Origin: Deltaproteobacteria bacterium
GTDB lineage: Bacteria > Desulfobacterota > Syntrophia > Syntrophales > UBA6807
Length of the DNA stretch: 40,604 nucleotides
Assembly (NCBI GenBank): GCA_016935565.1
Contig: JAFGQS010000123.1
Coordinates: 1 to 40,604, forward strand
Direction: 5' to 3'
Shown here: positions 29,559 through 34,889 of the stretch, one piece after another
Numbering within the stretch: position 1 is the stretch's first letter
How the letters are laid out: each line of letters starts with the position of its first letter
The notes under the pieces: generated by a model
Seen by the model: only the letters and a program-made list of their open reading frames with translations
What the model was told of the DNA's origin: nothing
Database searches by the model: none
Program-made: the position numbers and the translations under genes

Positions 29559-29658
29559 GATAAAACAATAGCATAGGATATTTAGATTTATTGATATCTT
29601 CTTGATATTATTTGACGTTAAGGTTACATTGGAAGGCACTTCGCCGGAGGACTCACCG

Positions 29659-31785
29659 ATGATTGGAAACGATAACCGTTTTTCAATACCGTTTGCCGTA
29701 ACAGTCCTCGGTATATCTCACGTCGTAACGCAGATTACCGTTATTCGCGAGTTCATCAATGTCTTTGCGGGGAACGAAGTCGTCCTTGGAATTCTTTTCT
29801 CTCTCTGGATGTTACTTACAGGGTTCGGGGCATGGCTGGGTAAATTCGTGAGGACTTTTACTCTCCAGATGCTTTTATTTCGACTTTCACTTTTTCTCGT
29901 TGCTTTTTTACCGATAGTGCATATTTTTCTCATCCGCTTCCTTCGAGACTATCTTTTCATCAGAGGAGAAATGCCTGGAATCGGACCGCTCATTATCTGG
30001 GCAACTGCTCTCTTAACACCATATTGTCTTATCACGGGTATCCTCCTCACGATAGCCTGCAGTATATTTCCTGCGTACGACTCGGGGAAACTCAGTATCG
30101 GCAAAGTCTATTTTTTTGACAATATCGGCGACATCTTAGGCGGACTTCTTTTCACGTTTATTCTTGTTCTGTATTTCAATAATATTACCATACTGTACGT
30201 TCCCGCTTTTCTCTGTCTTCTCGGACTTCTTCTCGTAAAGGGCTCTAACGCCGGGAGTCAGTATTTCAAGTTCCTCTGGGGTATCGGCGGCATGATTCTC
30301 CTGAGTATCATCATATTACTTCCGCTCGAAGACATCTCACTGCAATGGCTGTATCCGGGTCAGAAGATTGTCGATCACCTTGAATCACCATACGGAAGGG
30401 TTGTGGTCACGAGAGACCATGATCAAATTTCCTTTTTCGAAAACGGAGAGCACCTCTTTTCAACCCCCAACGTCTTTGCCAATGAAGAGCTCGTCCACTT
30501 TGCCCTTCCCCAGATACCTGACGTTCAATCCGTTTTGCTGATCTCGGGAGGCGTGTCCGGGATTCTTGATGAAATCCTGAAATACGATGTACGTACTGTT
30601 GACTATGTTGAACTCGATCCTTCGGTCATTACTGCCGGGATGAAGCACCTTAACATTCACTTTCCACAGGCTGTTCATCTCCGACAGCAGGACGGAAGAA
30701 ATTTTATCCATAATACGAAAAACAAATATACTGCAGTGATTCTTGATCTGCCCGATCCAACATCTCTTCAACTCAACCGCTTTTATACCTATGAGTTTTT
30801 TAACGAGGTCAAATCGATTCTATTGCCCAAGGGAAGCATCTGCTTCGGGGTAAAAGGTGCGGAAAATTATATCAGCCATGACCAGGCTCGTTTTTTATCA
30901 GCACTCCATAATACGCTGAAGAAGATTTTTGATCATGTCCTTATCATTCCGGGAGAAAGAAATATTTTTATTGCCTCCGACAGACCCCTGTCTTCCGATA
31001 TTGCTACCCTCATTGCAGCCCGGAAAATCCAAACGACATACGTGAATAAATATTATCTTTCCGGAAGAGTAACAGCGGAAAGACTTTCATTCATCAAGCA
31101 GCATATTATCGATGACGTTCCCACGAATCACGATTTTCGTCCCACAGCATTCATATATAGTATCCGTATCTGGCTGAACATGTTTCAGGAAACCTTCAAG
31201 ATTCCCTTACTAATGATTTTTCTCTTCTTTGCAACCTATTTTGCCCGAATCGGCATGGTCAACAAAGCACTGTTTACGACAGGATTCACTGCCTCTTCCA
31301 TGGAGATAATGATTCTTTTCTGTTTTCAGATTTCTCACGGCAGTATGTACACAGGCATCGGTTTCATTATCGCGTCATTTATGCTGGGACTTGCAGCAGG
31401 GAGTTATATGGCAAACCGCCTCCTTCTTGTTACCAAAAAAACCATTCTTGAAATCGAAGCATATATTATACTGTACATACTCATTTTTTTGGTCATCCTC
31501 ATCGCGGGAAAATCGCTTCGCGGAATCCTAATCTTTCCTGTACTTGCTATTGTAATCGGTACATTAACAGGGGCTGAATTCCCCATTGCCTCGAGACTTG
31601 TGTATTCTTCCCCATGGGAAACGGCAGGCTCCCTGTATACTGCCGACCTGCTCGGGGGAAGTCTGGGAGCTATCGTTGTGAGCCTCTTTTGTGTACCCAC
31701 CATCGGAATTTTTTATACCTGTTTAATGCTTGCAGTATTTAAGATATTGATCATTTCAGGATTGGTTGTTACAATCAATCGCTAG
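29659..31785 (+). CDS. polytopic membrane protein with spermidine-synthase-like domain (type B)
   Basis: A 708-residue inner-membrane protein. Residues about 8-222 hold seven or so helices, 240-445 an aminopropyltransferase-like domain, and 510-705 seven more helices. The middle domain keeps much of the spermidine-synthase pattern: YGRVVVTRDHDQISFFENGEHLFST (245-269), NEELVHFALPQ, GGVSGILDEILKY (297-309), VELDPSVI (317-324) and a D-L-P-D-P (363-367) in place of D-S-S-D-P, so both catalytic-site Asp remain. ATG 29659 is chosen for its GGAGG site. The radical SAM gene begins 16 bp after its stop, so the two are almost certainly one operon. Polyamine synthesis in the membrane is possible but unproven. 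Confidence 0.85.
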   Translation: MIGNDNRFSIPFAVTVLGISHVVTQITVIREFINVFAGNEVVLGILFSLWMLLTGFGAWLGKFVRTFTLQMLLFRLSLFLVAFLPIVHIFLIRFLRDYLFIRGEMPGIGPLIIWATALLTPYCLITGILLTIACSIFPAYDSGKLSIGKVYFFDNIGDILGGLLFTFILVLYFNNITILYVPAFLCLLGLLLVKGSNAGSQYFKFLWGIGGMILLSIIILLPLEDISLQWLYPGQKIVDHLESPYGRVVVTRDHDQISFFENGEHLFSTPNVFANEELVHFALPQIPDVQSVLLISGGVSGILDEILKYDVRTVDYVELDPSVITAGMKHLNIHFPQAVHLRQQDGRNFIHNTKNKYTAVILDLPDPTSLQLNRFYTYEFFNEVKSILLPKGSICFGVKGAENYISHDQARFLSALHNTLKKIFDHVLIIPGERNIFIASDRPLSSDIATLIAARKIQTTYVNKYYLSGRVTAERLSFIKQHIIDDVPTNHDFRPTAFIYSIRIWLNMFQETFKIPLLMIFLFFATYFARIGMVNKALFTTGFTASSMEIMILFCFQISHGSMYTGIGFIIASFMLGLAAGSYMANRLLLVTKKTILEIEAYIILYILIFLVILIAGKSLRGILIFPVLAIVIGTLTGAEFPIASRLVYSSPWETAGSLYTADLLGGSLGAIVVSLFCVPTIGIFYTCLMLAVFKILIISGLVVTINR

Positions 31786-31801
31786 GAAGATATGAACGAA
31801 C

Positions 31802-32992
31802 ATGACACATTCTAAAAATAATGATTCTTTTCCGTTTCTAACACGAAGAGAACTCCTCATATCCGGCATTCTGAGTGCTTCATTGTTTTGCCCCCTTCAA
31901 GCTCTCGCCAAGCCACTCTTCTCGTCCGGCAAAAATGAAAAAAAGGTCACGCTTCATGACGCGCCGGCAAAACTCTGGAAGTGGTCGAAAGAGGTTTATT
32001 TCAAGGAAGAATTGAAAAACAACTACGTCCGGTGTCTCACCTGTCCCAATACATGCATCCTGGCTCCGGACGCGCGGAGCAGATGCAAATCACATGTTAA
32101 CAAAGACGGGAAACTGTATACACTCGTTTATGGTAACCCCTGTGCTGTGCATATCGACCCAATTGAGAAAAAACCCCTCTATCATTTTCTCCCTTCATCA
32201 AGAACTTTTTCCATCGCCACAACAGGCTGTAGTTTTCATTGTCTGAACTGCCAGAATTGGGAAATATCGCAGGCCAGACCGGAGGAAGTCAGAACTCATG
32301 ACATGTTTCCGGAAGAGGTTGTCGGCGCCGCCGTCAAGACACAGTGCCGGTCGATCGCCTATACATATTCTGAAGCGACAACATTTTATGAATACATGCT
32401 TGACACGTCTCGATTGGCACGGGCAAGAAATTTAAAAAATACTTGGATAACAAATGGTTACATAAACGCTGCCCCCCTCACTGAACTGTGCAAAACCCTC
32501 GATGCAGCCAATGTTGATATCAAGAGCTTTTCAGAAGTCACCTATTCCAGGCTGAATGCCGGTCGTCTGAAACCGGTTCTTAAAACTCTCTCAATTCTTA
32601 AAGAAAAAAATGTCTGGTTTGAAATGACGGCTCTCATCGTACCCACCTATACAGACAATATTGAAATGGTCAAAAGGATGTGCGACTGGATTCTGGAAAA
32701 TCTGGGACCCGATTATCCTCTCCACTTTTCACGGTTCCATCCTCGATATAAATTGACCCATCTTCCTCCGACGCCCATTTCATTTCTCGAAAATGCTTGG
32801 AAAACGGCCATGAAGATGGGCATTCACTATGTCTACGTGGGTAATGTTCCCCCGTCAGATTGGAATCACACGTACTGTCCATCCTGCAAAAAGAAAATCA
32901 TAGATCGTACCGGGTATTATATTGGCGAAATACATGTGAATGACGGAAAATGTACCTTCTGCAAAGAACCCATTGCGGGAGTGTGGAATTAG
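31802..32992 (+). CDS. amrS: AmmeMemoRadiSam system radical SAM enzyme with Tat-like signal
   Basis: A 396-residue radical SAM protein of the AmmeMemoRadiSam family (pyruvate-formate-lyase-activase-like). The 4Fe-4S/SAM motif is C143-x3-C147-x2-C150 (GCSFHCLNCQNW). It has the usual N-terminal Cys region (CLTCPNTC, C95), the family stretches YTYSEATTFYEYMLD, ITNGYINAAPL and DIKSFSE, and a C-terminal zinc-ribbon-like pair (CPSC, CTFC). Unusually, residues 10-37 look like a twin-arginine signal: LTRRELLISG, a hydrophobic core and ALAKP. If used, the folded enzyme would be exported. Coupled to the polytopic SpeE-like gene upstream. The reaction of this family is not settled; the short symbol follows common usage. 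Confidence 0.9.
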   Translation: MTHSKNNDSFPFLTRRELLISGILSASLFCPLQALAKPLFSSGKNEKKVTLHDAPAKLWKWSKEVYFKEELKNNYVRCLTCPNTCILAPDARSRCKSHVNKDGKLYTLVYGNPCAVHIDPIEKKPLYHFLPSSRTFSIATTGCSFHCLNCQNWEISQARPEEVRTHDMFPEEVVGAAVKTQCRSIAYTYSEATTFYEYMLDTSRLARARNLKNTWITNGYINAAPLTELCKTLDAANVDIKSFSEVTYSRLNAGRLKPVLKTLSILKEKNVWFEMTALIVPTYTDNIEMVKRMCDWILENLGPDYPLHFSRFHPRYKLTHLPPTPISFLENAWKTAMKMGIHYVYVGNVPPSDWNHTYCPSCKKKIIDRTGYYIGEIHVNDGKCTFCKEPIAGVWN

Positions 32993-33068
32993 GAAACCTT
33001 ATTTGACCAGCACAGTTTTTCATTACAAAGATTTCATCCGGCAATTCCGCAAGTGACAGCTCCGAGTT

Positions 33069-33284
33069 CTTCTTATATCGAAAGAAAAAAATGCCGCGTA
33101 AGGCAAGCGAAATTCCGAGGGCCTTCTGAAACGAGAGAGATTCTTTTGAAAACAGGTACGCAAGGACCGGTGCGACCAGCGGATATGGTACCGTTATCAC
33201 CACAACACGGGTCACTTCACCATGTGCGAATGCCGTATAGAAGAAAAATGACCCGATTATCGAAACAAACCCACTGAAGAACAC
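33069..33284 (-). pseudogene. EamA/DMT transporter fragment
   Basis: A 72-codon stretch looks like the last half-domain of an EamA (drug/metabolite) transporter: FFSGFVSIIGSFFFYTAFAHGEVTR, PYPLVAPVLAYLFSKESLSFQKALGISLALRGIFFFRYKK. The first seven or so helices are missing, and the frame runs on past the normal end into the 3' part of the radical SAM gene (to 32898). Upstream it meets the 53-codon ORF. This is a remnant, not a working transporter. Confidence 0.7.
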
Positions 33285-33285
33285 A

Positions 33286-33447
33286 TTAACCCTCTGATTT
33301 TTCCATATCAGCCATGATGGCAAGTATCGTTTGATAGGACATGTTTAATAAATATTCCGGGGGATTTCCGGTACCGCCCCTGGCAAATTCTTTGGTTATT
33401 TCAATTGCTCGATCTAATGCCCATTCTTTTTGTTTCCTGTTTACCAT
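33286..33447 (-). CDS. 53-aa small protein
   Basis: The frame reads MVNRKQKEWALDRAIEITKE, then FARGGTGNPPEYLLNMSYQT and ILAIMADMEKSEG. AGGGAGGT (33456-33463) lies eight bases before ATG 33447, an excellent start. The sequence suggests two amphipathic helices with a Gly/Pro turn and no membrane segment. It lies between the radical SAM and Memo genes but on the opposite strand. Small helical proteins of this look are common in Desulfobacterota, without known function. I consider it a real gene. Confidence 0.65.
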   Translation of the reverse strand: MVNRKQKEWALDRAIEITKEFARGGTGNPPEYLLNMSYQTILAIMADMEKSEG

Positions 33448-33668
33448 GACAATATACCTCCCTGTTTATACTAATCATTCTACCAATCATATATGCCATC
33501 CACTGTGAACAAGAAATGATATGATTGTTCTTTGTGATGCTCTTTCTACATAACGAATTCATGAAAAGAAGTCCACATTTCTGCCTTGACAAGAGCATTT
33601 TATTGTCACAATGTAAAGGTTCTAATAAAAAGGCATCGGTATTAAATGCCGGACAGGAAATGAATACA

Positions 33669-34889
33669 ATGAAGAAGCCCCTTTTGAGAAGGGATATTCA
33701 ACTTATTTCAACGGCCATTGAAGGACAGAAGGTAATTTTATTCATGGATCCGCTCCGCCTGGTTCAGAATAGTTTTGCCGTCGATATATCGCTGCTCCCT
33801 CTCTTCGAAGCTCTCAACGGACAGAATGACCTGAGAGACATTCAGATGGAAATGATGCGTCAGCAAGGGGGACGTCTGGTTTCTCTTTCCGAAATAGAAG
33901 CGTTTATGGAACAATTGGACAATATTTTTCTCCTCGAAAGCGATCTGTTCTACGAGAAAGTAGAATCGGTATATGGAGAATTCAGTCGATTAGAGAATCG
34001 ACCTCCCTCACACGCAGGCAGTGCATATGAGGCCGATCCTGTAAAACTCAGCCGTTTCATCGATGCTATTGAACAAAATCTTCCACGGAACGATTCGGAT
34101 TATATCCATCGGCACATCACCGGCGTTGTGGCCCCTCATATAGACATCATGGTGGGAAGCACGACCTATATTGATCTCTATCGTCATGTAAAAGGGAAAA
34201 ATTATAAACTCGTTGTAATTCTCGGCATCGATCACCAACGGAATGACGGTCTTTACTCGGTATCGGAAAAAAATTTTATAACTCCTTTCGGGACAATCAA
34301 GACTGACAGAGATTTCATTTCTCAACTCAAAAAAAGGGTGCCGCAGGGAACCCTGTCATCAAACGATTTCGGTCACAGAACAGAACACTCTATCGAATTT
34401 CAAACAATCTTTCTTCATTATTACCTCGAAGAACCATTTTGTATCGTACCCATCCTCTGCGGAGGTATTCATGAGTTTATTTATCAGGGAAAGAATATCT
34501 TTGCCGATGAGCGTTTTAACAAGATGACAGATGTCCTCTCAGATTTGATTCAGATGGGAGGAAACAATGCGTTGATTGTTTCGGGAGTCGATTTCTCCCA
34601 TATAGGATTCAAATTCGGGCATCACATGACAGCGGAAGCCCTTCTCCCCCAGGCTCAGTCATACGACCGGACTATCATTTCACACCTTCTCCAGGGACAA
34701 CCGGACAAGATCTTTGAAAGTGCCGTGGAAACCCGGGATCGTTTTAACGTTTGCGGACTCCCGTCGATCATTACATTTTCAAGGATCTTACAGGGAAGCA
34801 CGGGAAAACTCATTGCTCATGAAACGTATAACGAATCGGCAACGCAAAGTGCTGTCACCTATGCATCGATGATATTTACCGGTCAATAA
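33669..34889 (+). CDS. amrB: AmmeMemoRadiSam system protein B (Memo) with PqqD-like N-terminal extension
   Basis: A 406-residue protein. Residues about 112-406 are a Memo domain (extradiol-dioxygenase-like fold): AGSAYEADP, VAPHIDI (H157), ILGIDHQ (H189), the TPFG strand, EHSIEFQ (H240), SGVDFSHIG (H311) and CGLPS (C362), so the putative metal/active-site residues are kept. Residues 1-100 form an added domain with a PqqD-like pattern: strands around LRRDIQLISTAIEGQKVILFMDP, then ALNGQNDLRDIQMEMM and SEIEAFMEQLDNIFLLESDLFYE. The start is ATG 33669 or 33660; the longer frame to 33525 looks non-coding. The partner AMMECR1 protein is not in the window. Function of the family is unsettled. Confidence 0.85.
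   Translation: MKKPLLRRDIQLISTAIEGQKVILFMDPLRLVQNSFAVDISLLPLFEALNGQNDLRDIQMEMMRQQGGRLVSLSEIEAFMEQLDNIFLLESDLFYEKVESVYGEFSRLENRPPSHAGSAYEADPVKLSRFIDAIEQNLPRNDSDYIHRHITGVVAPHIDIMVGSTTYIDLYRHVKGKNYKLVVILGIDHQRNDGLYSVSEKNFITPFGTIKTDRDFISQLKKRVPQGTLSSNDFGHRTEHSIEFQTIFLHYYLEEPFCIVPILCGGIHEFIYQGKNIFADERFNKMTDVLSDLIQMGGNNALIVSGVDFSHIGFKFGHHMTAEALLPQAQSYDRTIISHLLQGQPDKIFESAVETRDRFNVCGLPSIITFSRILQGSTGKLIAHETYNESATQSAVTYASMIFTGQ

Follow-up and report, generated by a model that had tools for sequence, protein, structure and literature searches.

AmmeMemoRadiSam systems are recognised from three proteins, namely a radical SAM enzyme (TIGR04337), a MEMO protein (TIGR04336) and an AMMECR1 protein (TIGR04335), and in their usual form they are signal-less. 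Radical SAM enzymes are assigned to the cytoplasm because SAM and strong reductants are located there. The Tat system exports folded cofactor proteins. To our knowledge, the molecular function of the human relatives of these proteins, MEMO1 and AMMECR1, is unknown. The abstract of the 2019 study by Burroughs reportedly links Memo to the modification of nucleotide bases and isoprenoids. A literature search found no work on the export of radical SAM enzymes and none on what AmmeMemoRadiSam does; PMC10924467 mentions the system merely as a neighbouring gene, and the one paper known to deal with the context of Memo-AMMECR1, Burroughs 2019 (PMC6664185; cited in PMC7159879), lay outside the search.

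The gene described here lies in a window of 40,604 nucleotides (the whole stretch of DNA analysed) from a member of the order Syntrophales. Its product passes TIGR04337, and both other proteins are encoded in the same genome, AMMECR1 being fused to MEMO on contig C140 and a second MEMO lying in the window, so that the genome holds all three components; the three are linked here only by co-occurrence and a shared export direction. Unlike the usual system, the radical SAM protein of the window bears a Tat signal, the MEMO-AMMECR1 fusions of its relatives bear Sec or lipoprotein signals, and the constant neighbour of the Tat-bearing enzyme is a membrane protein resembling fused MFS/spermidine synthases. 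With a probability of roughly 0.7, we consider 31802-32992 to be the radical SAM gene of an AmmeMemoRadiSam system that works extracytoplasmically; neither the export nor the substrate of the enzyme, nor the origin of its SAM and electrons, has been shown. The conserved signals on the enzyme and on its partners, as read from sequence, suggest that a whole radical-chemistry pathway may operate outside the cytoplasm. Such a set of conserved, exported proteins makes both the presence of SAM outside the cytoplasm and the role of the MEMO-AMMECR1-radical SAM system testable.

The radical SAM enzyme and its Tat signal

The open reading frame at 31802..32992 (+) encodes a protein of 396 residues whose N-terminus reads MTHSKNNDSFPFLTRRELLISGILSASLFCPLQALA followed by KPLF. 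The protein is intact and scores 343.2 bits with the radical SAM model TIGR04337, above the curated cut-off of 220; it is also matched by PF04055 and gave an AF2 model with a pLDDT of 89.6. The radical SAM motif CX3CX2C (C143/C147/C150; 32228..32251, +) is flanked by an N-terminal set of four cysteines (C78, C81, C85 and C95; 32033..32086, +) and a C-terminal CxxC...CxxC pair (C359, C362, C384 and C387; 32876..32962, +), so that eight conserved cysteines occur besides the motif. In an alignment of 34 Tat-bearing and 77 signal-less rows, all of these cysteines are 100% conserved except C362 (92% in signal-less proteins), which bears out the earlier description of the motif and its flanking clusters as complete. 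The core residues T188, Y189, E197, K241, D285 and H308 are equally invariant in Tat-bearing and cytoplasmic rows, and a dead active site in the Tat type is ruled out by this invariance. The closest solved fold is that of pyruvate formate-lyase activating enzyme (3cb8 and 8fo0; TM-score of the AF2 model 0.80-0.82, depending on the target), which also provides the closest sequence profile in the PDB. The window protein differs from it in its extra cysteine sets and Tat signal and shares only 16-17% identity with it, scoring below the cut-offs of the activase models (TIGR02493, 49.4 versus 231.75 bits; TIGR04041, 49 versus 250.2 bits).

The start of the gene at ATG 31802 is firm as judged from the DNA. 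The frame opens just two codons before it (open frame of 398 codons), and a likely ribosome-binding site, AGGAAG (31784..31789, +), which overlaps the preceding gene's stop codon, lies 12 bases 5' of it. Up to residue 100 the frame offers just two other possible starts, TTG28 within the hydrophobic core and TTG71.

Residues 1-36 (31802..31909, +) form a putative Tat signal peptide with a predicted cleavage after ALA36. The segment TRRELL occupies residues 14-19 (twin-arginine codons R15-R16; 31844..31849, +), an uncharged stretch follows at 18-36 and ALA-K stands at 34-37, just where the sequence-only reading had located them. TRRELLI is a weak Tat motif, weaker than the signals of the relatives, and this N-terminus is not matched by the Tat profiles TIGR01409 or PF10518. 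TatC is encoded in the genome (256.6 bits, contig C176). A Tat signal at the N-terminus is missing from all 37 further radical SAM proteins encoded there, the two regular-expression matches among them being internal.

Relatives of the enzyme were collected from genome contigs, 395 genomes of the phylum and 60 genomes of the order. With duplicates removed, 229 related loci remained; a signal of the form [ST]-R/K-R-x-F-[LIV]-[KR] with a hydrophobic core was identified in 76 of them, eleven borderline loci having been classified by eye. Among the 73 unique Tat N-termini, the second arginine is present in all and the first position is R in 64 and K in 9; the twin R/K-R and a hydrophobic residue at +3 were required by the search. 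Features left free by the search also match the Tat consensus, with S/T at -1 in 66/73, F at +3 in 55/73, L/I/V at +4 in 69/73 and K/R at +5 in 48/73, and an AxA follows the core in 46/73 (33% expected). TIGR01409 matches 26 of 77 signal-bearing N-termini versus 0 of 76 signal-less controls, the window's own being among the unmatched. A chance motif is rejected on the evidence of shuffled N-terminal extensions, which pass the Tat criterion in only 1.4-3.4% of cases, and by the 37 control proteins. The earlier proposal, a twin-arginine signal preceding a radical SAM enzyme that is complete in all other respects, is upheld by retention of the signal in these loci and by the consensus at unselected positions. 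Taken together, the N-terminal comparisons support a genuine Tat signal on the window protein; export itself is inferred, there being no localisation data. A few N-termini of the family weakly match those of the Tat substrates NapA, NapG and PhsA, which carry Fe-S or Mo cofactors; unlike the present protein, these are respiratory redox enzymes and not SAM-consuming radical enzymes.

The Tat label required 3 changes, versus about 29 in shuffles, on a tree built from the catalytic domains of 111 representatives; the root of this tree was not inferred. One clade of 48 rows is signal-less and includes the second radical SAM copy of the window's genome (contig C186). The other large group holds every Tat row together with nested signal-less sets, one from Bacteroidales and one from Gammaproteobacteria, Lentisphaerota and Planctomycetota; in Bacteroidales the signals are missing together from all proteins of the system. 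On this tree the predicted signal is a lineage trait, and the most economical history, subject to the missing root, would be one gain and two losses. Aligning homologues had been proposed as a check, with a start downstream of the twin arginine as the refuting outcome: homologues from the window's own lineage retain both RR and core, and such starts occur elsewhere only, in the separate paralogous clade or in lineages of apparent signal loss. Within the order, a Tat copy was found in 25 of 54 classifiable genomes, 23 of which also keep a signal-less copy; the two that do not are 72% and 80% complete. A Tat-bearing enzyme close to the Deltaproteobacterial ones, again with an MFS/spermidine-synthase-like gene, was also seen on a contig labelled Aenigmatarchaeota (L041), through either mis-binning or transfer.

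Some relatives have a further insertion. In 9 of the 16 Tat-bearing enzymes of one clade of the order (loci L151, L163, L164, L165, L168, L171, L173, L174 and L175), a CXXCH lies between the Tat signal and the first cysteine set, usually with an HxH downstream of it, and all genomes encoding these proteins possess cytochrome c assembly. From its sequence this insertion may be a site of covalent heme c or of a metal (Zn); a covalent heme, if true, would need the periplasm.

Proposed partners: the membrane protein and MEMO-AMMECR1

Partner genes, which the sequence-only reading did not take up, also suggest by their predicted signals and topology a location outside the cytoplasm. The gene directly upstream (29602..31785, +; probable ATG start 29659) encodes an MFS/spermidine-synthase-like membrane protein, matched by NF037959 (42.7 bits, cut-off 40) and PF01564. 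It ends about 16-17 bases before the radical SAM gene and adjoins it at almost every locus of the window's clade; the two are probably in one operon. Over 68 homologues the protein averages 14 TM segments, seven of which precede a spermidine-synthase-like Rossmann domain (residues 242-530; 30325..31191, +), and the AF2 model (pTM 0.85) likewise shows seven helices, the domain and seven helices. The summed K+R is 19.0 in inside loops versus 4.7 in outside loops, with the N-terminus inside, and because of this bias the 290-residue domain after TM7 is predicted, from topology and model, to face the periplasm. Foldseek matched the domain to spermidine synthases, and the nucleotide-site residue D364 is present in 68/68 homologues. 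Unlike in fused MFS/spermidine synthases, the Asp of the catalytic pair is not conserved (D382 in 17/68, D385 in 26/68), and the protein fails the spermidine synthase model NF002956 (140.9 versus 472 bits). Spermidine synthesis is therefore implausible, but the domain could plausibly bind SAM or a related compound.

The homologue of this membrane protein carries an FMN-binding module at its C-terminus in Gammaproteobacteria and in some members of the Lentisphaerota and Planctomycetota, and many of these proteins also have a NapH/NosR-like Fe-S part. This arrangement resembles a conduit to the periplasm, in lineages where the radical SAM enzyme is signal-less. Examples are L103:1020-4655 and L061:7662-10592, both with a C-terminal FMN_bind and L103 also with the NapH/NosR-like part, from lineages with a signal-less radical SAM enzyme and exported MEMO. 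The window protein has neither an FMN/Fe-S module partner nor a CXXCH.

Sec or lipoprotein signals were found on 32 of the 35 MEMO-AMMECR1 fusions that adjoin a Tat-bearing enzyme; the other three comprise one obscured by a run of N, one whose start is visibly hydrophobic and one left unassigned. The domains of the fusion were confirmed separately. Non-adjacent fusions, encoded elsewhere in the genome, often have an export signal as well. At the level of the order, AMMECR1 lies in a MEMO fusion bearing a Sec or lipoprotein signal in 22/22 evaluable genomes with a Tat-bearing enzyme versus 1/25 others (Fisher p = 2.8e-11 on a stricter table of 22/23 versus 1/25, which counts the one genome unreadable through a run of N against the coupling). 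No correction for common descent was applied to these counts. Two genomes (G425 and G395) were excluded post hoc because both hold fragments of a Tat-type enzyme; with them the figures are 22/22 versus 3/27. Order genomes without a Tat copy mostly encode AMMECR1 alone and signal-less, and only G436 of the 25 evaluable looks exported. The close relatives of the window's genome each have a single AMMECR1 domain, so that where it is exported none remains inside; it lies in a signal-bearing fusion in six genomes and is truncated in G421. The fusion of the window's own genome has no in-frame signal as assembled. A Sec-type signal, MNRSFQITAWGILIFCLILSFSEKGG, lies in another frame (L133:1380-1500, contig C140) and meets the fusion at a run of eight G, which implies an assembly error, a switched signal (phase variation) or a lost one. 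An apparent decayed signal precedes the MEMO-AMMECR1 fusion of G403, a genome of the same family without a Tat-bearing enzyme (L368:1410 region, reverse). At another locus (L243, minus strand), a signal-less radical SAM enzyme and an FMN/NapH-like protein are accompanied by unfused MEMO and AMMECR1 genes, both of whose products begin with an N-terminal signal anchor.

The second MEMO-like protein of the window (33525..34889, +; TIGR04336, 100.5 bits; PF01875) has no signal and is probably cytoplasmic; its gene neighbours the radical SAM gene in some relatives. Its N-terminal extension of about 150 residues matches no Pfam family and is an architecture common to close relatives. Clustering of neighbouring ORFs over the 76 Tat loci gave, beyond the radical SAM, spermidine-synthase-like and MEMO/AMMECR1 genes, mostly antisense or lineage-bound ORFs.

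Location of the radical chemistry

According to the extracytoplasmic reading, the enzyme would fold and take up its 4Fe-4S clusters in the cytoplasm, as inferred from Tat biology, and would then be exported by Tat with a probable cut after ALA36, a step inferred from a signal that the comparisons do show. Outside, it would meet the MEMO-AMMECR1 fusion and the periplasmic Rossmann domain (their signals and topology are predicted, the meeting is inferred) and may modify an envelope-side substrate by chemistry like that of the pyruvate formate-lyase activase, as its predicted fold and active site indicate; the substrate is unknown. Electrons might come from periplasmic low-potential carriers, for which the membrane FMN/Fe-S modules or the CXXCH of relatives, mere hints at present, could serve, and supply of SAM through the MFS-like half of the partner is speculative. 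The signal-less paralogue would handle cytoplasmic work. If true, this form would limit substrates to envelope molecules (lipids, peptides or glycans) and argue against nucleic acids as targets in these lineages. A complete periplasmic pathway, in which the MFS half exports or exchanges SAM, the Rossmann domain holds it, the radical SAM enzyme and MEMO-AMMECR1 use it and low-potential carriers feed electrons, can only be put forward tentatively. Against an extracytoplasmic location, there is no established SAM pool in the periplasm or beyond, and both the C140 fusion as assembled and the MEMO-like protein at 33525 lack an in-frame signal.

The signal might be genuine and the chemistry nonetheless cytoplasmic, before or instead of export, with Tat serving for quality control, for tethering to the membrane or for slow removal of the protein, and with exported MEMO-AMMECR1 acting on a product that crosses the membrane. 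We regard this as unlikely, though plentiful SAM and reductant are known only inside, and the pairing of exported MEMO-AMMECR1 with a signal-less radical SAM enzyme in relatives from Gammaproteobacteria, Lentisphaerota and Planctomycetota means that the enzyme need not be outside for the system. A signal on a second enzyme is, however, hard to explain if both copies work inside, given the separate signal-less paralogue in 23 of the 25 Tat genomes of the order, and the signals are retained throughout a diverse clade. Little credence is given to an exported enzyme without multiple-turnover SAM chemistry, whose Fe-S clusters or one preloaded SAM would make it an electron-transfer protein or a single-use activator. 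Tat's handling of folded cofactor proteins, the eight further cysteines and the CXXCH of some relatives would suit such a role, but the radical SAM motif and core are as invariant in Tat-bearing as in cytoplasmic rows, which indicates the same chemistry. That the start is wrong or the motif accidental, the real enzyme beginning downstream in the cytoplasm, is scarcely credible: an AAGGAAG near TTG71 and the failure of Tat profiles on this N-terminus speak for it, yet the stop-to-stop frame makes ATG 31802 behind AGGAAG the natural start, TTG71 is rejected as it is not a conserved start codon in close relatives, and the RR and core stay conserved while the sequence around them varies.

At its 3' end the radical SAM gene is overlapped by a fragment of an EamA transporter (half a domain; 32898-33323, -) that lies between it and the MEMO-like gene and looks like a gene remnant.
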